From a virus, in the IMG/VR virus record IMGVR_UViG_3300025132_000212, positions 1-28,738 of that record: 28,738 bases of DNA. One strand, written 5' to 3'. A model generated the notes under the pieces. That model ran no database searches. It had not been told where the DNA came from and saw only the letters and a list, made by a program, of their open reading frames with translations. Each line of letters begins with the position of its first letter. Position 1 is the stretch's first letter. Below, in pieces: positions 7,589-22,553 of the stretch. Both the position numbers and the translations under genes were made by a program.

Positions 7589-9073
7589 ATGAACCAAAAC
7601 TTTGACATACCTCTTGAGTTTCTTACTGACGATGAGGTTCAAGAACTTAGTAAGTTTGTAGGCAGGCTAGAGGAAGTTTCTAAAAGGGATGAGTCGCAAA
7701 GCGATTTTATAACTTTTGTAAAACATGTCTGGCCTACATTTATTGAGGGCAATCATCACAAGATATACGCTGAAAAGCTACAGAAAGTGGCTGAAGGCAA
7801 GATAAAGCGGTTAATTATTAATATGCCGCCCAGACACACAAAGTCTGAGTTTGCGTCATATTTGTTTCCTGCATGGCTTATGGGACGCAATCCAAATACA
7901 AAGGTTATTCAGGCAACGCACACGGCTGAGTTAGCTGTTGGTTTTGGTCGTAAAGTTAAGAACCTTATCGACAGTGAAATATATCGTGACATATTTCCTG
8001 ATTTAGCGTTAGCTAGTGATGCGAAAGCATCTGGTCGTTGGTCTACATCCAAAGGGGGCGAGTATTATGCCGTGGGTGTCGGTGGTGCGCTCGCTGGTCG
8101 TGGTGCTGACTTGTGTATCATTGATGATCCTGTATCTGAACAGGATGCGTTATCACCTACCGCACTCGATAATATTTACGAATGGTACACATCAGGCCCA
8201 AGACAAAGACTCCAGCCAGGCGGGTCAATAATCATCGTGATGACACGGTGGAGTATACGGGATTTAACGGCGAAAGTGTTGCAGAAGCAGGCCGAGGGCG
8301 GGGCGGATCAATGGGATGTTGTGGAGTTCCCGGCGATATTTCCAGATTCAGACAACGTGTTGTGGCCCGAATACTGGAAACGAGAAGAATTAGACGCTGT
8401 TAAAGCATCTATTCCTGTTTCTAAATGGAACTCTCAGTATTTACAAAATCCAACAGCCGAAGAAGGGGCGATTATCAAGAGGGAGTGGTGGAATGTTTGG
8501 GATAGTGGTAGCCCGCCTGCCTGTTCGTACATCATACAATCATACGACACAGCCTTCTCTAAGTCAGAGAGGGCGGACTACTCTGCTATTACTACTTGGG
8601 GCATTTTTGAACCTGTGGATGGAGACGGCGAGGCCATCATCTTACTTGACGCGCAGCGAGGTCGATGGGATTTTCCAGAACTTAAAGACGCTGCCCAAGA
8701 TTTATATACAGAGTTTGAGCCAGACATGGTGCTTATTGAACAAAAGGCCAGTGGTATGCCCCTCACCCAAGAACTGCGGAGAATGGGGGTGCCTGTCACG
8801 CCCTTTACCCCTTCAAGAGGGGCGGATAAGTTCACACGGATGAATGCTTGTGCGCCTGTTTTTGAGTCTGGTATGGTGTGGCGACCTGATATGAATTTTG
8901 CTGAGGAAGTGGTTGAGGAATGTGCCTCATTTCCCAACGGTGAACATGATGACTTGGCTGATTCGATGACACAGGCTATACTCAGGTTCAGGCAGGGTGG
9001 ATTTATCATTACTCCCTCTGATTATGATGAAGACGATTACCGTGAATTTAATAGGAAACGGGAGTATTACTGA
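7589..9073 (+). CDS. terL: Terminase large subunit
   Basis: This is the ATPase and nuclease of the DNA-packaging motor, acting at the portal. The ATPase domain has a Walker A-type PPRHTKSE (residues 80-87) with the lysine in the atypical late position usual for TerL, Walker B LCIIDD (175-180), and a coupling-type segment IIIVMTRW (214-221). The C-terminal RNase H-like nuclease has the three acidic positions in SYDTAFS (Asp320), VLIEQKASG (Glu384) and EHDDLADS (Asp454/Asp455). Length (494 aa) is typical. The ATG at 7589 follows TAAG closely; an ATG at 7585 is out of frame and stops after six codons. It overlaps the next gene by TGATG. Confidence 0.96.
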   Translation: MNQNFDIPLEFLTDDEVQELSKFVGRLEEVSKRDESQSDFITFVKHVWPTFIEGNHHKIYAEKLQKVAEGKIKRLIINMPPRHTKSEFASYLFPAWLMGRNPNTKVIQATHTAELAVGFGRKVKNLIDSEIYRDIFPDLALASDAKASGRWSTSKGGEYYAVGVGGALAGRGADLCIIDDPVSEQDALSPTALDNIYEWYTSGPRQRLQPGGSIIIVMTRWSIRDLTAKVLQKQAEGGADQWDVVEFPAIFPDSDNVLWPEYWKREELDAVKASIPVSKWNSQYLQNPTAEEGAIIKREWWNVWDSGSPPACSYIIQSYDTAFSKSERADYSAITTWGIFEPVDGDGEAIILLDAQRGRWDFPELKDAAQDLYTEFEPDMVLIEQKASGMPLTQELRRMGVPVTPFTPSRGADKFTRMNACAPVFESGMVWRPDMNFAEEVVEECASFPNGEHDDLADSMTQAILRFRQGGFIITPSDYDEDDYREFNRKREYY

Positions 9074-9408
9074 TGGCAAAAGAAAAGTACCTTTTTACCC
9101 GCATGGAAAATGCTAAATCAGAACTTACAAAGGCTAAAAAAAGTGGTAGTCAAAACAGAATAAATGCCGCCGAAGAGAGAATAAAAAATCTTGAGGCAAT
9201 GGCTGAAGATGATTATGACTACGGGAAGTTTAAAGAAGGTGGCGAAGCTGTTCCTGCAAAATTTAAAGGATTTTCCAAGCTGCCTGAAGGCGTTCAGCAG
9301 AAAATGGACCCTGACCTTGCTCAGAAATATGAAGCGGGTGGTGCTGTTGGCAGTTGCCGTGGCATGGGTGCTGCTATGCGCGGTGGCAAGTTCTCTGGGG
9401 TAAAGTGA
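9073..9408 (+). CDS. Small tagged protein (GGAV...RGGKFSGVK tail), 111 aa
   Basis: The N-terminal 45 residues are a charged helix likely to form a coiled coil (MENAKSELTKAKKSGSQNRI). The middle is EDDYDYGKFKEGGEAVPAKF, and the C-terminus is EAGGAVGSCRGMGAAMRGGK then FSGVK. That Gly/Arg/Lys tail recurs in the next three or four proteins. A GACRGMGAAM-like motif is one I know from open-ocean phage proteins. It overlaps terL and the next gene by TGATG on both sides. Function is unknown; a virion or packaging accessory is likely from context. Confidence 0.72.
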   Translation: MAKEKYLFTRMENAKSELTKAKKSGSQNRINAAEERIKNLEAMAEDDYDYGKFKEGGEAVPAKFKGFSKLPEGVQQKMDPDLAQKYEAGGAVGSCRGMGAAMRGGKFSGVK

Positions 9409-9749
9409 TGAGCAATGAATACAATGAAGCAATTCTTGAAAACCTCTTTGAAGAAGGCTTAGAGCTTTATAAGGGTGACGAGAAAAAAGCAGAAAGATAC
9501 GCTAAAAAGAAATTTGAAGACTTGCCAGAGCCAGACTACAAAGCGGAGGGCGGAGATGTCAAAAGACCAACCCCAACATATAAGTCGATGGACATGGGTG
9601 GCGATATTCTTGATTCTTATCTTGCTGGCCTTGGAAACTCTAAGGACACTACTATAAAAGGTGGTGGGTCAAAGAAGCCAAAGCCTATTAAAAAAGCTAA
9701 AGGCGGGGCTGTTTCTCCTCGTAAAGCACAAGGTATGTATCGTGGCTGA
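9408..9749 (+). CDS. Small tagged protein (KGGAVSPRKAQGMYRG tail), 113 aa
   Basis: The start is the ATG at 9408 (TGATG overlap with the previous stop) rather than an in-frame ATG at 9354 inside the previous gene. The N-terminal helix is MSNEYNEAILENLFEEGLEL and is acidic. A Lys-rich segment with KAERYAKKKFEDLPEPDY follows, then MDMGGDILDSYLAGLG, then a Lys/Pro/Gly-rich stretch ending KGGAVSPRKAQGMYRG. The tail keeps KGGAV and a final Arg-Gly but lacks KFKG. The next gene's GTG start lies inside its last codons. Function is unknown. Confidence 0.7.
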   Translation: MSNEYNEAILENLFEEGLELYKGDEKKAERYAKKKFEDLPEPDYKAEGGDVKRPTPTYKSMDMGGDILDSYLAGLGNSKDTTIKGGGSKKPKPIKKAKGGAVSPRKAQGMYRG

Positions 9750-9951
9750 TATTCTGGATAAATTTACCAAAGCGGAGCTTAGAAGGATTTTGCGTGGTGA
9801 TTTAAAAAATCAGTATGGTGATGAGTATGATGCTCACATTAAGATGATAGATAATCAGCAAAAAGGCATTCAAAATTTTCCGATTACTAAAAAGCGCTAT
9901 GGTGGCGCTGTTCTTAACGGTCGTGGTGGTAAGTTTAAAGGGGTTTTATGA
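9742..9951 (+). CDS. Small tagged protein (GGAVLNGRGGKFKGVL tail), 69 aa
   Basis: The best start is the GTG at 9742, overlapping the previous stop by 8 bp; upstream in-frame starts (from 9661) give a stretch that reads as an out-of-frame copy of the previous gene. The product begins VADILDKFTKAELRRILRGD, a compact helical region, then KNQYGDEYDAHIKMIDNQQ, then PITKKRYGGAVLNGRGGKFK. The tail is nearly the same as that of the next protein. It ends in ATGA with the following gene. Function is unknown. Confidence 0.68.
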   Translation: MADILDKFTKAELRRILRGDLKNQYGDEYDAHIKMIDNQQKGIQNFPITKKRYGGAVLNGRGGKFKGVL

Positions 9952-10466
9952 TGGCAAATAAATTATTTAGAGGTTCTTTAAAGCCGCGCACAAAAGGCAC
10001 AAAAGATAACCCTTTAACGGATTATGAAAAGCAAATAATTCAAAAGAAGAAGGAGGCCAAGCAGAAAACAGAAGATGCTACTTTTGGAGTTTTAGCTGGA
10101 AAGTTTGGAGATAAGAGTAGCACGTTAAGCGACATTGCTAATTCTTTAGGTGTTACGTTAAAGTCTTTGAAAAAAGAAAACCCTCAAATTGAAGATTTAA
10201 ATAAAATCAGAAAAAACCAGCGTATTAATATTCCTGTAAGAAGACAAACATTTTTTGAAAAGTACATTGCTGGCACAAAAACTAAACCGTCAACTCGTAA
10301 ACTTGTAAATCAAGCTGGAACTGCAGAAGAGTTAGCTGTAAAAAAAGGCGCTGAAGGAAGTGTTTACGAAGGCATGTCAAAAAAAGAAATGAAGGCCATA
10401 TCAAATTTTCGTGGCGGCGGAGCTGTTATGCCTGGCCGTGGTGGTAAGTTTAAGGGTATTTCGTGA
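9948..10466 (+). CDS. LysM-domain protein with C-terminal RGGKFKG tail, 172 aa
   Basis: Residues about 56-97 form a LysM-like domain: SSTLSDIANSLGVTLKSLKK, then NPQIEDLNKIRKNQRINIPV. It shows the usual helix, helix, strand order and the ending 'I..Gq.i.IP', with Asn in place of Gly. LysM binds peptidoglycan N-acetylglucosamine chains. The N-terminus is basic, with helix YEKQIIQKKKEAKQKTED. The C-terminus is FRGGGAVMPGRGGKFKGIS. ATG starts at 9948 and 9951 are both possible. In a phage structural operon a LysM protein may be carried in the virion to contact the wall during entry, or act at lysis. No hydrolase domain is attached. Confidence 0.78.
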   Translation: MMANKLFRGSLKPRTKGTKDNPLTDYEKQIIQKKKEAKQKTEDATFGVLAGKFGDKSSTLSDIANSLGVTLKSLKKENPQIEDLNKIRKNQRINIPVRRQTFFEKYIAGTKTKPSTRKLVNQAGTAEELAVKKGAEGSVYEGMSKKEMKAISNFRGGGAVMPGRGGKFKGIS

Positions 10467-10579
10467 TGTTATTTGAGGTTGGGGCGAGCAATTTTAGCCA
10501 AGGTGAAGCCCTTCATTCTAGGCTTGGCGTGAGAGAACCCTCCACTCAGAGCGTCAGGTTGTTCGTTCCAACGCTGTAA
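10466..10579 (+). CDS. Possible micro-protein, 37 aa
   Basis: The ATG overlaps the previous stop (TGATG), and the frame runs 37 codons to a TAA that overlaps the ribosome site of the next gene. The product (MLFEVGASNFSQGEALHSRL...) has no recognisable feature. It fills most of the 126-bp gap between the LysM gene and the next. The overlap geometry matches real genes around it, but chance is possible at this length. Confidence 0.35.
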   Translation: MLFEVGASNFSQGEALHSRLGVREPSTQSVRLFVPTL

Positions 10580-10592
10580 AAGGAGGCATTAA

Positions 10593-11723
10593 GTGTCAAC
10601 AAAAGATGACATTTTAGAGCCGTTTGATTTTAAAAAATCACCAAGTATGAGCAGCCAGTTATTTAAAGCTGCTCCTGGTGTTTTTGGAGACGGTGACGGA
10701 TTGTCTTTTTTGCAAGGGGCGAACAGGGTTTTGGTTGGCGGCCCTCTTGATGTAATTGATGCGGTTGGCAGAGCTGGGGAGTCTGGGCTTCGCGCAGTTG
10801 CAGAGGGCGTAGAAGCTGCAACAGGCTTAACTGGTATCAAAAGAGATATCTATGGGCTGGGTCAAGCGGCTGGTCTGTTAGCAGGAGCAAGCCCTTCAGC
10901 TTTGTCTGGGGCGAGAGTGCCCTCCACTCGCCGCGCCGCCTCATCTGACTCAACGCCTTCATCTGGCATAATGAAGGTATTAGAAGGGCCACAAAAGCCT
11001 GCTGGTTTATTGCCTGCGCCAAAGCCTAGAAAAGCTTTGGAGGGCGAGATTGTTTCAGGCCCTTCTGATAACTTTCTTCAGGCTCGAGCAAAAAGAGACA
11101 AAGCAATCTCTAAACAGGGCCAAGAAGTATATCAAGAAGAAATGGATTACCTGGGTCTTGAGGACTCGTTTCAGACCATTCGCAATGACATTGAAGATGG
11201 CTTTGTTGGTGCGACTGACAACGGCTTCGAGCCTATGGACGCCGATGGATTTTTCGACACATTTCAGGACCGCATTATGTACGAGCGCATGAAGGCTCAA
11301 GAGCGTGGCGAAAAAGTGAATATGGGCGAGATTATCGCTCAAGAGTTGCCTGAAACCATTGAAGACTTTGAGCGCAGCTTTGGGCTTTTTGTTAGTTCCA
11401 ACGACATGGTTAACAAAATCTCAAAAACAGCAGACGATATTTATGAGTTTGGTGTTGGCGCTGCGAAGAAGCGCAGAGATGAAACCGCACAGGCTGTAAG
11501 CGATATGCGTACTGAGAGAAACCGCTTGGCTATGGATAACCGCAAAAAAGAATATTACAGAAGCATTGGCATTACTGATGATATGACAGATGACCAAATA
11601 AGAGATATACTGTACGAGCGTCAGACAGGAATGCAGCGTGATTTGGCAGGGGCAGGTATACCAAAGCCAAAACCAGAAGGCCCGAATTTGCGCGTTGTGA
11701 TTAATAATAAGGATTTAGACTAA
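10593..11723 (+). CDS. Hypothetical virion/internal protein candidate, 376 aa
   Basis: The GTG start is set by AAAAGGAGG at about 10577-10585; no ATG fits. Residues 40-110 contain Gly/Ala-rich amphipathic helices (FLQGANRVLVGGPLDVIDAV, GLGQAAGLLAGASPSALSG), followed by a Ser/Pro-rich linker and a long acidic, helical C-terminal region (MDYLGLEDSFQTIRNDIED and onward). It sits between TerL-linked small genes and the portal and overlaps the portal by TAATG. Hydrophobic-helix plus coiled layouts are common in ejected internal proteins and head-tail factors. I cannot name the family. Confidence 0.65.
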   Translation: MSTKDDILEPFDFKKSPSMSSQLFKAAPGVFGDGDGLSFLQGANRVLVGGPLDVIDAVGRAGESGLRAVAEGVEAATGLTGIKRDIYGLGQAAGLLAGASPSALSGARVPSTRRAASSDSTPSSGIMKVLEGPQKPAGLLPAPKPRKALEGEIVSGPSDNFLQARAKRDKAISKQGQEVYQEEMDYLGLEDSFQTIRNDIEDGFVGATDNGFEPMDADGFFDTFQDRIMYERMKAQERGEKVNMGEIIAQELPETIEDFERSFGLFVSSNDMVNKISKTADDIYEFGVGAAKKRRDETAQAVSDMRTERNRLAMDNRKKEYYRSIGITDDMTDDQIRDILYERQTGMQRDLAGAGIPKPKPEGPNLRVVINNKDLD

Positions 11724-14173
11724 TGGCAATTGAAAAAGGTATCGGTTCAGGCAACGATAATGTAGTGCCAATGAATCCTCAAGAGCAGGCTGAAATTGAT
11801 GTCATAGAAATGGCAATGCAGCCCGGTCAAGTAACAATGGACGATGGCTCTGTTATTGTTGGTAATATCACTGAAGAAATGATGGCAGCAGAAGTGCCAG
11901 TAGAGATACCTTTTAACTCTAACCTAGTTGATTTTATGGATGAGGCAGAAACCACAGCTATCGCCTCTGACTTGGTTGGTGAGATTGAAGATGACTTGTC
12001 ATCTCGTGAGGATTGGGAAGAAGTTTACAAAAGAGGCATTGATCTTCTTGGTATGAATTATGAAGACAGATCGCAGCCATTTGAAGGCGCGTCTGGTGTA
12101 GTTCATCCTCTTTTAGCCGAATCAGTTACACAGTTTCAAGCGCAGGCTTATCGTGAGTTATTGCCTGCTGGCGGACCTGTTCGCACACAGATAATTGGCG
12201 ATCAGAACAAAGAGGTCTTAGCGCAATCTGAACGTGTTAAGAACTATATGAATTATCAGATTACTTATGAAATGGAGGAGTATGATCCTGAACTGGACCA
12301 AATGCTTTTTTACCTTCCCATCATAGGTTCTACTTTTAAAAAGATTTACTTTGACCCTCTTTTGCAAAGAGCCGTATCTAAATTTGTTCACGCTGAAGAT
12401 CTCATTGTTCCTTACAGCGCAACTGATTTAGCATCAGCAACACGCATTACGCATGTTGTTAAGATGGATAAAAATGAGATAAGAAAGCTACAGCTTACAG
12501 GCTTTTACGCTGATATAGACCTGCCTGGAGATGGCTATGGAGATGAAGATTACTCTGATGTGAAAGAAACCATAGATGAAATACAGGGTATTTCTCCATC
12601 AGGGTCCAGTGAAGAAGTAACGCTGTATGAAGTTCACACAAATTTAGATTTATCTGGTTTTAAAGATGTGGATGCAAACGGTGAAGAGACTGAATTAAAG
12701 CTTCCATATATCGTAACAATTGTAGAAAAAAGTGGCAAAGTTCTGGCGATTCGCCGTAATTATGATGAGACAGATCCTTTGCGCCGTTCTAAGCCTTATT
12801 TTGTGCATTACAAGTTTTTGCCTGGTTTAGGTTTTTACGGATTTGGCCTTACACATATGATTGGCGGACTGTCTCAAGCAGCAACAAGCTTGTTAAGACA
12901 GCTAATTGATGCTGGCACCCTGTCCAACCTCCCTGCGGGGTTCAAGGCTCGTGGCGCTCGTATCCGCGATGAAGACGAACCACTAAATCCCGGTGAGTTT
13001 CGTGATATTGATGTCGCAGGTATGGACATCCGCCAATCGCTCATGACACTTCCGTTTAAAGAGCCTTCACAGACGCTTTATTCGCTTTTAGGAACGCTTG
13101 TTGATTCTGGTCGTAGATTTGCCTCTTTAGCTGACATGAAAGTAGCTGAGATGGGTGGAGAAACACCTGTAGGCACAACTATGGCGATTATGGAGCGCGG
13201 CACAAAAGTTATGTCTGCGATTCACAAGCGCTTGCATTATTCACAAAAGGTTGAATTTAAGCTTTTGGCTAATGTGTTCGCTAGGTTTATGGCCCCTATG
13301 TATCCATACGCGATACCAGGCGCACCTCCAGAGATTAAGGTTGCGGACTTTGATGATCGTATAGATGTTTTGCCTGTGTCAGATCCTAACATCTTTTCTA
13401 TGTCACAGCGTATTGCCTTAGCTCAGACAGAGCTGCAACTGGTTCAATCAAACCCAGAGATACATGGAAACGAACAGGGTTTGTATCAGGCCTACCGTAA
13501 AATGTATGAAGCATTAGGAGTTACCAATGTCGATGCAATCTTACCTCCACCTCCTGTTCCTCAACCTACGAATCCGGCTAAAGAAAACCAAGAGGCAATG
13601 CGTGGAAAGGCTTTACAAGCTTTTCCAGATCAAAATCATAAAGCTCATATTGAAGCGCATTTGGCAATCATTGCAACGCCTGTGGCGCAAGCTAACGCAG
13701 CGATAGTTATGACATTGCAGGGTCATGTTCAGGAGCATCTTGGATTTATGGCTGAAGCTATGGCTCAAGAAGAAATAATGAGAGAATTGTCTCCCGAAGA
13801 ACAAATGCAGATTCAGTCATCTCAAGAAGGCGTGATGGCATTTCAGACAGAGGTTGCATCACGTGCGGCAGATTTGATTGGAGAGCTTACAGAACAATAC
13901 GCTCAAGCCGTCACGCCACCACAACAGCCTGACCCGCTTGTTGCTATACGTCAGCAAGAATTAGCTCTGCGCGAGGCTGATATTCAACGTAAGGCGAAAG
14001 AGGCAGATGACCGCGCCCAGTTAGACCGCGAAAAAGAATTGAATGACCAAATGGCTGAAAGCGCTAGAATAAATATCCAAAAAGAGGCTTTGGATGAAAA
14101 AACCAGAGTGGCAGAGGAGCGTATTCAAACTCAAAGAGATATTGCCGCTCTTAATAACATGACGAAAGGTTGA
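11723..14173 (+). CDS. Portal protein
   Basis: This is the dodecameric head vertex ring through which DNA enters and leaves. Its 816 aa falls in the larger portal class, as in P22-like phages. The N-terminal segment has ASDLVGEIEDDLSSREDWEE, then YEDRSQPFEGASGVVHPLLA, followed by QAYRELLPAGGPVRTQIIGD, a pattern I recognise from portals of environmental podovirus-like phages. A core beta region (about 190-420) and a helical part (GAPPEIKVADFDD...) follow. The last 200 residues are Gln/Ala/Glu-rich coiled coil (QQELALREADIQRKAKEADD), fitting a barrel. It overlaps the gene before it by TAATG. Assignment rests on pattern recall and position near TerL and scaffold. Confidence 0.85.
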   Translation: MAIEKGIGSGNDNVVPMNPQEQAEIDVIEMAMQPGQVTMDDGSVIVGNITEEMMAAEVPVEIPFNSNLVDFMDEAETTAIASDLVGEIEDDLSSREDWEEVYKRGIDLLGMNYEDRSQPFEGASGVVHPLLAESVTQFQAQAYRELLPAGGPVRTQIIGDQNKEVLAQSERVKNYMNYQITYEMEEYDPELDQMLFYLPIIGSTFKKIYFDPLLQRAVSKFVHAEDLIVPYSATDLASATRITHVVKMDKNEIRKLQLTGFYADIDLPGDGYGDEDYSDVKETIDEIQGISPSGSSEEVTLYEVHTNLDLSGFKDVDANGEETELKLPYIVTIVEKSGKVLAIRRNYDETDPLRRSKPYFVHYKFLPGLGFYGFGLTHMIGGLSQAATSLLRQLIDAGTLSNLPAGFKARGARIRDEDEPLNPGEFRDIDVAGMDIRQSLMTLPFKEPSQTLYSLLGTLVDSGRRFASLADMKVAEMGGETPVGTTMAIMERGTKVMSAIHKRLHYSQKVEFKLLANVFARFMAPMYPYAIPGAPPEIKVADFDDRIDVLPVSDPNIFSMSQRIALAQTELQLVQSNPEIHGNEQGLYQAYRKMYEALGVTNVDAILPPPPVPQPTNPAKENQEAMRGKALQAFPDQNHKAHIEAHLAIIATPVAQANAAIVMTLQGHVQEHLGFMAEAMAQEEIMRELSPEEQMQIQSSQEGVMAFQTEVASRAADLIGELTEQYAQAVTPPQQPDPLVAIRQQELALREADIQRKAKEADDRAQLDREKELNDQMAESARINIQKEALDEKTRVAEERIQTQRDIAALNNMTKG

Positions 14174-14177
14174 TAAG

Positions 14178-14456
14178 ATGACAGCAAGTTCAGTAAGCAG
14201 AAAAGTAGCTGCAATAGAAAAAGCTAAAAAAGTGGAGCGTAGAAATGCCCTTATTGAAAGGCAAAAGCCAAAGGACGATATCGTCAAACATATCGAAACT
14301 GAGGTCAGAGGGATACCCGCAGAGACAAGCGGTAGCGATAGCGTTATCGACAGCGGGGAAATCAAAGTCAAAGCCGTCAAGAAAAAGTCCAGTGGGTCTA
14401 AAAAAGGGGGGAGTGGTAAAAAGGTTCTCTCCGATAGCAAGGCCGCAAAGATTTAA
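14178..14456 (+). CDS. Small charged protein overlapping the next gene out of frame, 92 aa
   Basis: The ATG lies 4 bp after the portal stop, with AAAGG about 8 bp upstream. The N-terminus ([20 protein letters not shown]) is a basic helix, then [15 protein letters not shown], an acidic middle and a Lys/Ser/Gly-rich end. About 212 bp (14245-14456) is also read in the +1 frame by the next gene. The frame stays open for all 92 codons, and its N-terminal 22 codons are the only candidate covering the gap after the portal. I think it is real but less certain than the overlapping gene. Confidence 0.5.
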
Positions 14457-14469
14457 AGGTATTTTCTAA
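14245..14469 (+). CDS. Small phage protein, [15 protein letters not shown] family, 74 aa
   Basis: The N-terminus [20 protein letters not shown] then [19 protein letters not shown] matches a widespread small phage protein family I recall as starting 'MPL.KGKS.KTIS.NI..L..EG.PQKQAVAIA'. Its function is unknown. The C-terminal part is [20 protein letters not shown] then IF, a version of the RGGKFKG tail of genes 9073-10466. GGAG lies 7 bp before the ATG. It overlaps the previous gene in another frame for 212 bp and the next by TAATG. The family match makes this the more secure of the two overlapping frames. Confidence 0.75.
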
Positions 14470-17039: not shown

Positions 17040-17969
17040 ATGGAAGATGTAATGAATCAAGAGCAGCAAGTAAAAGAAGAAGAAACCATCACTGTTGATG
17101 TGGAAGATTCTCAAGAAAAAGTACGAATAAAAGAAGAGCCCGAACAATTGTTAGAATCTTCTGATAATTCAGAAGTTGATGGTGCTTCTGATGAAGAACT
17201 TGAGAATTACAGCGGTAACGTACAAAAGCGTATAAATCAGTTAACTGCTAAACGTAAGCAGGCTATGGAAGAAGCTGAAGCTGCTTATCAGTACGCTCAA
17301 CAGGTTCAACAGCAAAATGAGCAAATGAAAGCTCGTTTACAACAGTTAGACCAAGGCTACACAAATGAGTATGGGGCTCGTGTAGAGTCTCAAATGGATC
17401 AGGCCAAAAAGCTTATACGAGAAGCTCGTGACGTTGGTGATATAGACAAAGAGACAGAGGCCATGTCTCTGTTGCAGCGCTTGGCAATTGAACAAGAAAG
17501 AGTGCGTGTACAGAAGCAAAGATCAGAACAGCAAATTGATGTGCCGCAAGAAGCTCTAGCACAACAACCCCAACAAAAACAAGCGATTCCGCGTGAAGAA
17601 GATTTAGACCCTAAGCTGCGTTCTTGGATGTCTAAAAATGAAAGTTGGTTCAACAAAGATGCTGTAATGACAGGTGGGGTCAAAGCAATTCATGAACAAC
17701 TTGTTGGTGTTGAGGACTATGACCCAACAAGTGATGAGTATTATGCGGAAATTGATAAGCGTATGCGTAAAGAATTTCCTCACAAGTTTCAGGAGCAACG
17801 GCAGAACGCCCAAACTGTTGCGCCTGCGTCCGCTGGACGGTCTGTGAAATCAGGGCGGAAAAAGACGGTGGAATTAACACCAGGTCAGGTGGCTTTCGCC
17901 AAGAAGATGAATATTCCTCTTGAGCGGTATGCAAAAGAAGTCGCAAAATTAGATTCAAGGAGTGCATAA
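17040..17969 (+). CDS. Scaffold protein candidate
   Basis: This 309-aa protein is highly charged. An acidic N-terminus (about 1-60) precedes a long Gln/Glu/Lys-rich coiled coil (KRKQAMEEAEAAYQYAQQVQ through RLAIEQERVRVQKQRSEQQI), then a loop region and a basic C-terminal segment (AGRSVKSGRKKTVELTPGQV) like the capsid-binding tail of scaffolds. Order portal, co-chaperonin, scaffold, capsid supports it. It directs procapsid assembly and would be released or degraded later. Ribosome site GGTGGAGGG lies before the ATG at 17040. A GAACAATTGTTA word at 17142 encodes EQLL and is probably coincidental. Confidence 0.75.
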   Translation: MEDVMNQEQQVKEEETITVDVEDSQEKVRIKEEPEQLLESSDNSEVDGASDEELENYSGNVQKRINQLTAKRKQAMEEAEAAYQYAQQVQQQNEQMKARLQQLDQGYTNEYGARVESQMDQAKKLIREARDVGDIDKETEAMSLLQRLAIEQERVRVQKQRSEQQIDVPQEALAQQPQQKQAIPREEDLDPKLRSWMSKNESWFNKDAVMTGGVKAIHEQLVGVEDYDPTSDEYYAEIDKRMRKEFPHKFQEQRQNAQTVAPASAGRSVKSGRKKTVELTPGQVAFAKKMNIPLERYAKEVAKLDSRSA

Positions 17970-19044: not shown

Positions 19045-19953
19045 ATGGCTATTTCAAGAGCGCAACTAGTTAAAGAACTAGAGCCAGGCCTGAACGCCTT
19101 GTTCGGCATGGAATACGACCGCTACGATGCGGAACACGCAGAAATCTACGATACTGAATCATCAGACCGTGCGTTTGAAGAAGAAGTGATGCTCGTAGGT
19201 TTTGGTAACGCCCAGACCAAAGCAGAAGGTGCAGGCGTTTCTTTCGATAATGCTTCAGAAGCATACACAGCACGTTATACCCATGAGACAATCTCATTGG
19301 CATTCGCGCTGACTGAAGAGGCAATGGAAGATAACCTGTATGATCGCCTTGGCGCTCGTTACACAAGAGCATTGGCACGTTCAATGGCGCACACAAAGCA
19401 AGTAAAAGCGGCTGCAACGCTTAACAATGCGTTTGATAGCAGCTTTACTGGTGGTGACGGTAAGGAGCTTTGTGCTACTGACCACCCACTTGCTGGTGGT
19501 GGTACATTCCGCAACGAGCCTTCAACTGCTGCTGACCTTAACGAAACATCACTTGAGAATGCCTTAATTGACATCTCAACTTTCGTTGATGAGCGGAACA
19601 TGATCATTGCCTTGCGTGGCACAAAGATGATTGTTCCACCACAGCTTCAGTTTGTTGCTGATCGTCTGCTTGAGTCCACACTGCGTACAGGCACAGCCGA
19701 CAATGACATTAACGCAATCAATAACATGGGTATGTTGCCAGAGGGTTACACTGTTAACCACTTCTTGACAGACCCAGATGCGTTTTTCATTAAGACAGAT
19801 GCGCCAAACGGCTTTAAGCATTTTGAGCGTACTCCAATGTCTACTGGCATGGAAGCTGACTTTGATTCAGGCAACATGCGGTTTAAAGCCCGTGAGCGTT
19901 ACAGCTTCGGATTTTCTGACCCGCGTGCAGTGTTTGGCTCACCAGGAGCGTAA
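19045..19953 (+). CDS. Major capsid protein
   Basis: This 302-aa protein has the sequence character of Mu gpT-like (HK97-fold) major head subunits: MAISRAQLVKELEPGLNALF, FEEEVMLVGFGNAQTKAEGA, YTARYTHETISLAFALTEEA, then MEDNLYDRLGARYTRALARS (the spine helix), then the LCATDHPLAGGGTFRNEP loop, and an end with MRFKARERYSFGFSDPRAVF. There is no N-terminal delta domain, so a separate scaffold is expected and present. Codons look well adapted and the ribosome site is strong. It is followed by a palindrome and a strong terminator, which marks the end of the operon. Confidence 0.88.
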   Translation: MAISRAQLVKELEPGLNALFGMEYDRYDAEHAEIYDTESSDRAFEEEVMLVGFGNAQTKAEGAGVSFDNASEAYTARYTHETISLAFALTEEAMEDNLYDRLGARYTRALARSMAHTKQVKAAATLNNAFDSSFTGGDGKELCATDHPLAGGGTFRNEPSTAADLNETSLENALIDISTFVDERNMIIALRGTKMIVPPQLQFVADRLLESTLRTGTADNDINAINNMGMLPEGYTVNHFLTDPDAFFIKTDAPNGFKHFERTPMSTGMEADFDSGNMRFKARERYSFGFSDPRAVFGSPGA

Positions 19954-21974: not shown

Positions 21975-22185
21975 CGGAACACCAAAAGGCCTTACTTATT
22001 TTAGGAAGGGTGGGGCGGCTTCTAAAAAGTCAAAAGGCAGTAAAATATGCCCAGAAGGTAAAGCATGGGCAAAACGCACTTTTGATACATATCCAAGCGC
22101 ATATGCAAACCTTGCTGCATCAAAGTATTGCAAAGACCCTAATTACGCTAAGAAGGCCAAGGGCGGTAAAAGAAAGGGTAAGTAA
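21961..22185 (+). CDS. Basic protein, CPEGKAWAKRTFDTYPSAYAN type, 74 aa
   Basis: The conserved core is KICPEGKAWAKRTFDTYPSA followed by YANLAASKYCKDPNY, with two cysteines about 28 residues apart, a small helical domain I have seen in marine phage and some plastid-bearing-host virus proteins. It is flanked by Lys/Gly-rich arms (FRKGGAASKKSKGSK and a KGGKRKGK tail). It overlaps the preceding gene by 14 bp and the next by TAATG. Function is unknown; a DNA-associated or virion role is my inference. Confidence 0.75.
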   Translation: MQKRSGTPKGLTYFRKGGAASKKSKGSKICPEGKAWAKRTFDTYPSAYANLAASKYCKDPNYAKKAKGGKRKGK

Positions 22186-22553
22186 TGGGGGAGCTTAAAA
22201 AATGGCTAAAACAAAATTGGGTTCGCATTGGTACTGATGGAAGTATCAAGGGTAAATGCGGCACATCTAAAGACAAAAAAAACCCAGACCGCTGCCTACC
22301 AGCTTCAAAAGCTAGAAGCCTCTCAAAAGCTGAAAGAGCGTCTACAGCAAGAAAGAAAAAGAGAGCGGGAGCAAAAGGCAAGACAGTGGTATCTAATACA
22401 AAGCAAGCTAAGGTCAGAAACCTCGCAAAGGGAGGTCCAGCTAAACGTCCTTTCAAGGGCAAAAAGGTGGCTGGCACGGCTGTTGCTAGGGGATGCGGTG
22501 TGATAATGTCTAACCGTAGAAAACGCACAAAAGGTGCAGTAACTCAGTCATAA
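22185..22553 (+). CDS. Basic protein with CGTSKDKKNPDRCLP and ARGCG motifs, 122 aa
   Basis: It has two recognisable parts. The first is WVRIGTDGSIKGKCGTSKDK then KNPDRCLPASKARSLSKAER, a two-cysteine motif related in style to the KSFCAR proteins. The second is a C-terminal ARGCGVIMSNRRKRTKGAVT, the 'ARGCGAVM..RRK.T' motif of many marine phage proteins. A Lys-rich linker with GGPAKRPFKGKK joins them and resembles the tail motif of genes 9073-10466. No enzyme motif is visible. It may be a fusion of two of the small basic modules. Confidence 0.75.
   Translation: MGELKKWLKQNWVRIGTDGSIKGKCGTSKDKKNPDRCLPASKARSLSKAERASTARKKKRAGAKGKTVVSNTKQAKVRNLAKGGPAKRPFKGKKVAGTAVARGCGVIMSNRRKRTKGAVTQS

Follow-up and report, generated by a model that had tools for sequence, protein, structure and literature searches.

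A recurring C-terminal peptide on unrelated small proteins of HTVC023P-type phages is a candidate head-targeting signal

Results

Four proteins of the window end in a common peptide

The window analyzed here is the whole 28,738-base stretch of the IMG/VR virus record IMGVR_UViG_3300025132_000212, and all coordinates are positions in it. An island of small genes lies between the genes for the terminase large subunit (TerL) and an SU10-type portal. Three proteins of the island and one encoded just after the portal gene, named here by the first coordinate of their genes, end in a similar short peptide, the tag, as a first-pass annotation of the sequence had claimed; the position of the tail was confirmed on all four (Table 1). 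The 9073, 9742, and 9948 proteins have the final residues RGGKFSGVK, RGGKFKGVL, and RGGKFKGIS, respectively. Among the plus-strand open reading frames (ORFs) of at least 40 residues in the window, only these three and the 14245 protein have an F-x-G-x-x ending. The core of the tag is [R/K]-x-x-x-F-[K/R/S]-G-[V/I/T]-x-COOH, and it follows a flexible Gly-rich spacer, GG[AC]V. Three related classes were distinguished: T1 (GG[AC]VMxGRGGKFKGVx), T2 (a 15-residue consensus), and T3 (CRGxGAAxRGTKFRGVK).

The protein bodies that precede the tag are different, which bears out the first-pass annotation. They are a coiled coil (9073), a 69-residue protein of no known family (9742), a LysM protein (9948), and a PHROG 2423 protein (14245). 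The LysM domain scores 22.3 bits against PF01476, above the Pfam gathering cut-off of 20.9, and the 14245 protein matches PHROG 2423 with E = 5.1e-17 over family positions 1-47 of 52. An ORF at 14178-14456, which overlaps the 14245 gene in another frame, was rejected as spurious; relatives match the 14245 protein better. The 9408 protein had been listed as a further member of the set. It has only the GGAV spacer in common with the others, it lacks the tag, and its relatives end in SPRKAQGMM... or SPRKAMGYMCGGHVKGT. By sequence it is not a tag carrier.

Table 1. Features of the window that bear on the C-terminal tag
Feature	Coordinates	Strand	Remark
Terminase large subunit (TerL)	7589..9073	+	Left border of the tagged-gene island
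Tagged protein, 111 residues, coiled-coil body with FSKLPEGVQQKMDP module, T3-class tag	9073..9408	+	
T3 tag VGSCRGMGAAMRGGKFSGVK (protein 9073-9408)	9346..9405	+	T3 class also found on other bodies
Untagged neighbor, C terminus GGAVSPRKAQGMYRG	9408..9749	+	Only the GGAV spacer in common
Tagged protein, 69 residues, GTG start, C terminus GGAVLNGRGGKFKGVL	9742..9951	+	
T1 tag RGGKFKGVL (protein 9742-9951)	9922..9948	+	
Tagged protein, 172 residues, LysM domain at residues 59-96, C terminus GGGAVMPGRGGKFKGIS	9948..10466	+	Domain from Pfam
T1 tag RGGKFKGIS (LysM protein)	10437..10463	+	Swapped body before it; alignment with four relatives restarts here or shortly upstream
Untagged acidic protein, 376 residues, isoelectric point (pI) 4.8	10593..11723	+	
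Portal protein, SU10-type	11723..14173	+	Right border of the island
Tagged protein, 74 residues, PHROG 2423 body	14245..14469	+	Just after the portal gene
T2 tag, 14 residues (protein 14245-14469)	14425..14466	+	
Major capsid protein (MCP) of the tag-bearing head lineage	19045..19953	+	Candidate receptor, one of several

The tag sits at a fixed distance from the stop codon

IMG/VR viral contigs were scanned for DNA that encodes RGGKFKG, with its position within the ORF left free; the scan gave at least 120 stretches, and its counts are lower bounds. Among the matches listed, 105 distinct ORFs contain RGGKFKG; in 90 of them exactly 2 residues separate it from the stop, and every other distance was seen at most twice. 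The variants ARPQRFKG and RGGSFKG were exactly 2 residues from the stop in 40/44 and 27/37 distinct ORFs, respectively. A search of 257 Gb of cellular genomes for the tag codons with an immediate stop gave four matches, all of them ORF remnants of 52 residues or fewer. A tblastn search of annotated phages with the 20-residue tail, a query that is too short, gave no match. The recurrence of the tail is far beyond chance.

The tag is confined to one head lineage

Internal occurrences of the motif served as the control for a lineage link. Among the matches listed, C-terminal RGGKFKG was found in contigs that carry the TerL, portal, MCP, or other structural genes of this phage, and internal RGGKFKG was found elsewhere (88/1 C-terminal and 1/14 internal matches in such contigs/elsewhere; p = 3e-15). 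The same split was 40/0 and 0/4 for ARPQRFKG and 26/1 and 0/10 for RGGSFKG. The tag is thus confined to one head lineage, the HTVC023P type as defined by TerL, portal, and MCP. The first-pass annotation had taken the motif to be frequent in marine phages at large, a claim that does not hold because all matches fall in this lineage.

Loci were also fetched by TerL similarity alone, without regard to the tail. In these loci, the F-x-G-x-x ending is present in 75 of the 143 distinct ORFs located between TerL and portal, compared to 9 of 987 elsewhere (Fisher p = 4e-66). When all loci are counted, the region between TerL and portal contains at least 354 of the 417 tagged ORFs; the remainder are mostly between portal and MCP, and nearly all are in adjoining structural genes. 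In 19 whole or large records, the wider tag pattern occurs at most twice per record. Some relatives have no island. In CRP-901, QDWS535, MinM2, and RW, the portal gene directly follows TerL (only a tRNA is annotated in the RW gap), and no tag was seen when the CRP-901 C termini were read. The interval of the untagged acidic gene at 10593-11723 is absent between conserved flanks in loci L008, L010, and L011, where homology ends near 10583 and restarts at the portal start, 11723. From these alignments, the gene appears to be a precise presence/absence cassette.

Other recurring tails were observed in these phages. GGxVxxMT[RK]SxxINPxTGE recurs in the TerL-portal island (L054, L057, L061, L065, L074, L075, and L076). 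GGLATMFTRRR is exactly C-terminal in 45 of 46 distinct ORFs, once per locus (L323-L380; L002 19471-21318). Its carriers are large, acidic, mostly dissimilar proteins encoded after TerL in the psg01-like clade, and it is possibly a second, separate tag or, alternatively, a constrained terminus in a single gene that otherwise changes fast. Two consecutive small post-portal proteins of DSL-LC04 (L004 26333-26584 and 26594-26938) have the common C terminus KKT[KR]I[YC], and the first of them has a PHROG 2423-like N terminus. In the window, a Lys-rich protein at 22185-22553, encoded amid several very basic small proteins, has the C terminus RGCGVIMSNRRKRTKGAVTQS, which may be a further common tail.

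Bodies and tags behave as separate modules

BLAST clustering divided the tagged proteins into at least 70 body clusters, or 119 at stricter coverage; the proteins are small, so some remote homology may have escaped notice, and one large cluster is chained via short common modules. Homologous bodies carry different tag classes. The bodies of L257 (T1, RGGKFKGVS) and L148 (T2) are near-identical, and further swap pairs on homologous bodies are L099/L037 versus L224 and L094/L182 versus L209/L267. Most homologues that were first scored as untagged have tails outside the search expression, such as GYGAATSGTKFKGIF. When the window was compared to four relatives with 94-99% TerL identity, homology was lost inside the tagged genes. 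It resumed at or just upstream of the LysM-gene tail, at 10392, 10403, 10416, and 10434, and the body of the relatives differs. These alignments indicate that the body was replaced while the resident tail stayed.

The bodies are mostly basic, with a median pI near 9.9. When 94 representative tagged proteins were scanned against Pfam, PHROGs, and NCBIfam, the matches were limited to EF-hand-like, LysM, and PHROG 2423 ones, apart from isolated weak hits. The LysM protein had no match among PDB sequences, and a Foldseek search with the model of the 14245 protein gave no significant match. The AlphaFold2 (AF2) model of the 14245 protein, computed with 35 sequences, is confident for an N-terminal domain of two helices and shows the tail as extended, with low confidence. 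The single-sequence AF2 model of the 9948 protein has a low predicted local distance difference test score (pLDDT) across the last 20 residues. These models may fit, weakly, a flexible peptide that requires a partner. An EF-hand or dockerin-like stretch, FPDLTGDGKVTKKDILRGRGV, recurs within tagged bodies (L089, L058, L163, and L292).

Selection on the peptide and a clade-specific variant

Among the matches listed, the 89 distinct RGGKFKG tails are encoded by 54 different 21-mers. Synonymous differences between tails are 0.55 within a genome and 0.54 between genomes, and 0/49 are identical. Because the two values match, recent copying does not account for the likeness of tails, and on the same grounds gene conversion was rejected as the source of the similarity within genomes. 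With one representative per T1 body cluster, and counting from the C terminus, R-9, G-8, and G-3 are invariant and F-5 is nearly so; the search expression itself partly required several of these positions, and the DNA scan with the position left free gives cleaner evidence. The codon comparisons indicate that selection acts on the amino acids and not on the DNA. Tails that vary freely among relatives had been set beforehand as the outcome at odds with a tag. This was tested, and the tails do not vary in this way.

One tag position differs by clade. In equally sampled loci, the clade whose portal is <60% identical to that of the window has RGGTFKG, with T at -6, on 10/10 RGGxFKG body clusters. 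The -6 residue of the other clade in the same sampling is K or N, and T occurs in 0/3 (p = 0.0035 compared to 10/10). In the loci fetched by TerL similarity, the -6 residue is S (10), K (9), or M (4), and T occurs in 0/23. Tail identity is 0.81 within genomes compared to 0.84 between them. There is no within-genome excess, and it is therefore the K/T position that carries the clade effect. Unrelated bodies that change together without DNA copying are what a clade-specific binding partner would be expected to produce.

Discussion

Proposed function of the tag

The sequence evidence argues that the tail is a selected, interchangeable C-terminal recognition peptide on unrelated small proteins. 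The first-pass annotation had suggested a short sorting tag on different proteins, a suggestion well borne out by the strict C-terminal position, the restriction to one lineage, the body/tag swaps, and the conservation at the protein level. In the mechanism that we propose, the tag at the free C terminus of small, mostly basic proteins would be bound by one phage structural partner common to all tagged proteins of a genome, with the portal, the major capsid protein, or a scaffold as candidates; the window encodes a scaffold-like protein at 17040-17969. Binding during assembly would build the tagged proteins into or onto the head. As hypervariable accessory proteins, they would then probably be delivered along with the DNA. 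With moderate confidence, we consider the tag best explained as a C-terminal signal by which basic, hypervariable cargo is targeted to the head and loaded into it; the virion location and the receptor of the tagged proteins are what we infer in this proposal. The principle would be that of the T4 capsid-targeting sequence moved to the C terminus. Virion loading also appears to be the best of the three readings offered by the first-pass annotation. A fuller version is possible but tentative. The tag would be an address peptide read by the phage's own head proteins, recombination would join new bodies to it, and the resulting genome-specific, virion-carried set would be injected, for example against host defenses, while tag and receptor co-evolve by clade.

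Several observations weigh against head loading. The clade pattern fits the portal, MCP, or TerL as the partner, because these three genes go together in the loci compared. Some island proteins have no tag, namely the 10593-11723 type and a family of ~136 residues. The literature searched contained no virion proteomics of any tagged protein. In the profile scans, no body matched a known anti-defense or ejection protein and most matched no known family. The basic character of the bodies carries less weight given that 62% of the small proteins in these phages have a pI >8.5. The AF2 monomers indicate only that the tail alone is not confidently folded. The loading signals of P1 DarB and T4 are N-terminal.

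Alternative explanations

The same shared partner could serve a different end. The peptide may bind TerL, the portal, or the chaperonin system and bring accessory factors to the packaging machine, where they act in the cell and leave no virion resident. The tagged genes adjoin TerL and portal, the lineage encodes its own GroES, and the data speak for a shared partner rather than for virion residence. We nevertheless regard such assembly recruitment as rather unlikely, since bodies so diverse and so quickly replaced are easier to reconcile with exchangeable cargo for delivery than with components of conserved machinery. A plain DNA-binding tail inside the capsid, which the first-pass annotation had also considered, would hold packaged DNA by charge and need no dedicated protein receptor. 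The tail contributes 2-4 basic residues, and the bodies are mostly basic as well, but charge requires neither a fixed 2-residue distance to the stop nor an invariant F and G, and it leaves the clade variants unexplained: the clade-wide K-to-T change lowers the charge on ten unrelated bodies. This explanation is improbable. The third reading of that annotation, a host-membrane anchor that inserts the tagged proteins into the host membrane, is scarcely credible given a Gly/Arg/Lys-rich tail with no hydrophobic stretch in any tag class.

Two further explanations concern the origin of the tails. The tagged proteins could be paralogues of one tagged ancestor that duplicated and changed very fast with the tail alone constrained, a history that is compatible with a tag. 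Short modules are common to some bodies (FSKLPE..., FPDLTGDGKVT...), and clusters chain together. The homologous bodies with different tag classes, the recombination joints at the tail, and the LysM body point to modular joining and not to divergence only, and we give this history a low probability. Finally, the terminal codons could provide the ribosome-binding site for the next gene, which overlaps them, with the amino acids as a by-product. The next start is overlapped by 194 of 213 T1 genes, and codon -3 in these genes prefers GGA/GGG over GGC. Yet among untagged genes that overlap their neighbor in this way, [KR]G and F-x-G are each found in only 4%, and a translation element leaves unexplained both the upstream R-G-G-x-F and the free variation of synonymous codons in the rest of the tail. 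On these grounds, a ribosome-binding site was rejected as the main cause and is very unlikely to account for the tag. Because of the next-start overlap and the GGA/GGG bias at codon -3, the last (K-G) codons probably also serve as a ribosome-binding site, a secondary role.

Comparison with known loading signals

In T4, the capsid-targeting sequence (CTS) lies at the N terminus, and the prohead protease cleaves it off. The tag differs from it in sequence and in being C-terminal, 2 residues from the stop, and it is not known to be cleaved. The resemblance is to the T-even internal proteins as a set, which combine small, very diverse bodies with one short conserved peptide (PMC3012670); the bodies here form at least 70 clusters. 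Once injected, T4 IPI* blocks the GmrS/GmrD nuclease, and the CTS can also serve to load foreign proteins (PMC3012670). The N-terminal signal of P1 DarB suffices to take a reporter into the phage head, and this cargo guards against host restriction (PMC9024508). BLAST gave no consensus among the N termini of the Dar proteins (PMC9024508), unlike the one signal common to many proteins here, which is also C-terminal. Encapsulin cargo-loading peptides are short, C-terminal, and carried by unrelated cargo of a shell with the HK97 fold (PMC8346489). The tag is like them in position and in its unrelated carriers, and they provide a precedent for loading such a shell by a C-terminal peptide. However, the Family 1 consensus SDGSLGIGSLKRS is unrelated in sequence to the tag consensus (GGAVMxGRGGKFKGVx or T2), and encapsulins hold enzyme cargo in a nanocompartment shell whereas this is a phage with TerL and portal in which shell binding would be the analogous step. 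The tag belongs to neither the T4-CTS nor the encapsulin-peptide family, as it does not have all the defining features of either. The motif strings and a description of the tag were absent from the literature searched, which included the papers on the lineage and left subscription literature mostly uncovered.

The window itself groups with the HTVC023P-type pelagiphages, with TerL, portal, and MCP identities of 56-60%, 48-52%, and 68-71%, respectively. The MCP is 68-74% identical when DSL-LC04 is compared along with the HTVC023P-type phages. The three genes are homologous and collinear, and a GroES gene lies between portal and MCP. The HTVC023P-type phages have other tag classes, and the psg01 post-TerL protein ends in GGLATMFTRRR. 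In cultured HTVC023P, gp32 (QGZ17661.1; ...RGVGAAIRGHKFIGVK) and gp51 (QGZ17680.1; ...RGGGAAVRGMGFKGVF) end in the tag and have unrelated bodies. This provides a concrete prediction, and the central claim is directly testable in that phage. The tag-bearing group, marine viruses of bacteria, is one of the ocean's most abundant phage groups. A tag that can be read from sequence would make dozens of unknown proteins candidate virion cargo at once and point to proteins that may be injected at infection. It would also add, to the N-terminal signals known from T4 and P1, a peptide that loads phage heads from the C terminus.

Other repeats in the window

Two DNA repeats were also observed. The palindrome-like GAACAATTGT(TC) is present at 1372, 1437, 1486, 2353, 3170, 4837, 17142, and 19957, mostly in GC-rich intergenic DNA and often with GGG directly after it. 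It has 11 matches on both strands compared to 0.1 expected and could be an operator, a terminator, or a mobile repeat. A 67-nt direct repeat at 1542-1608 and 2417-2483 (78% identity) ends in TTTCTTATATTATA upstream of small genes and looks like a duplicated phage promoter or leader.

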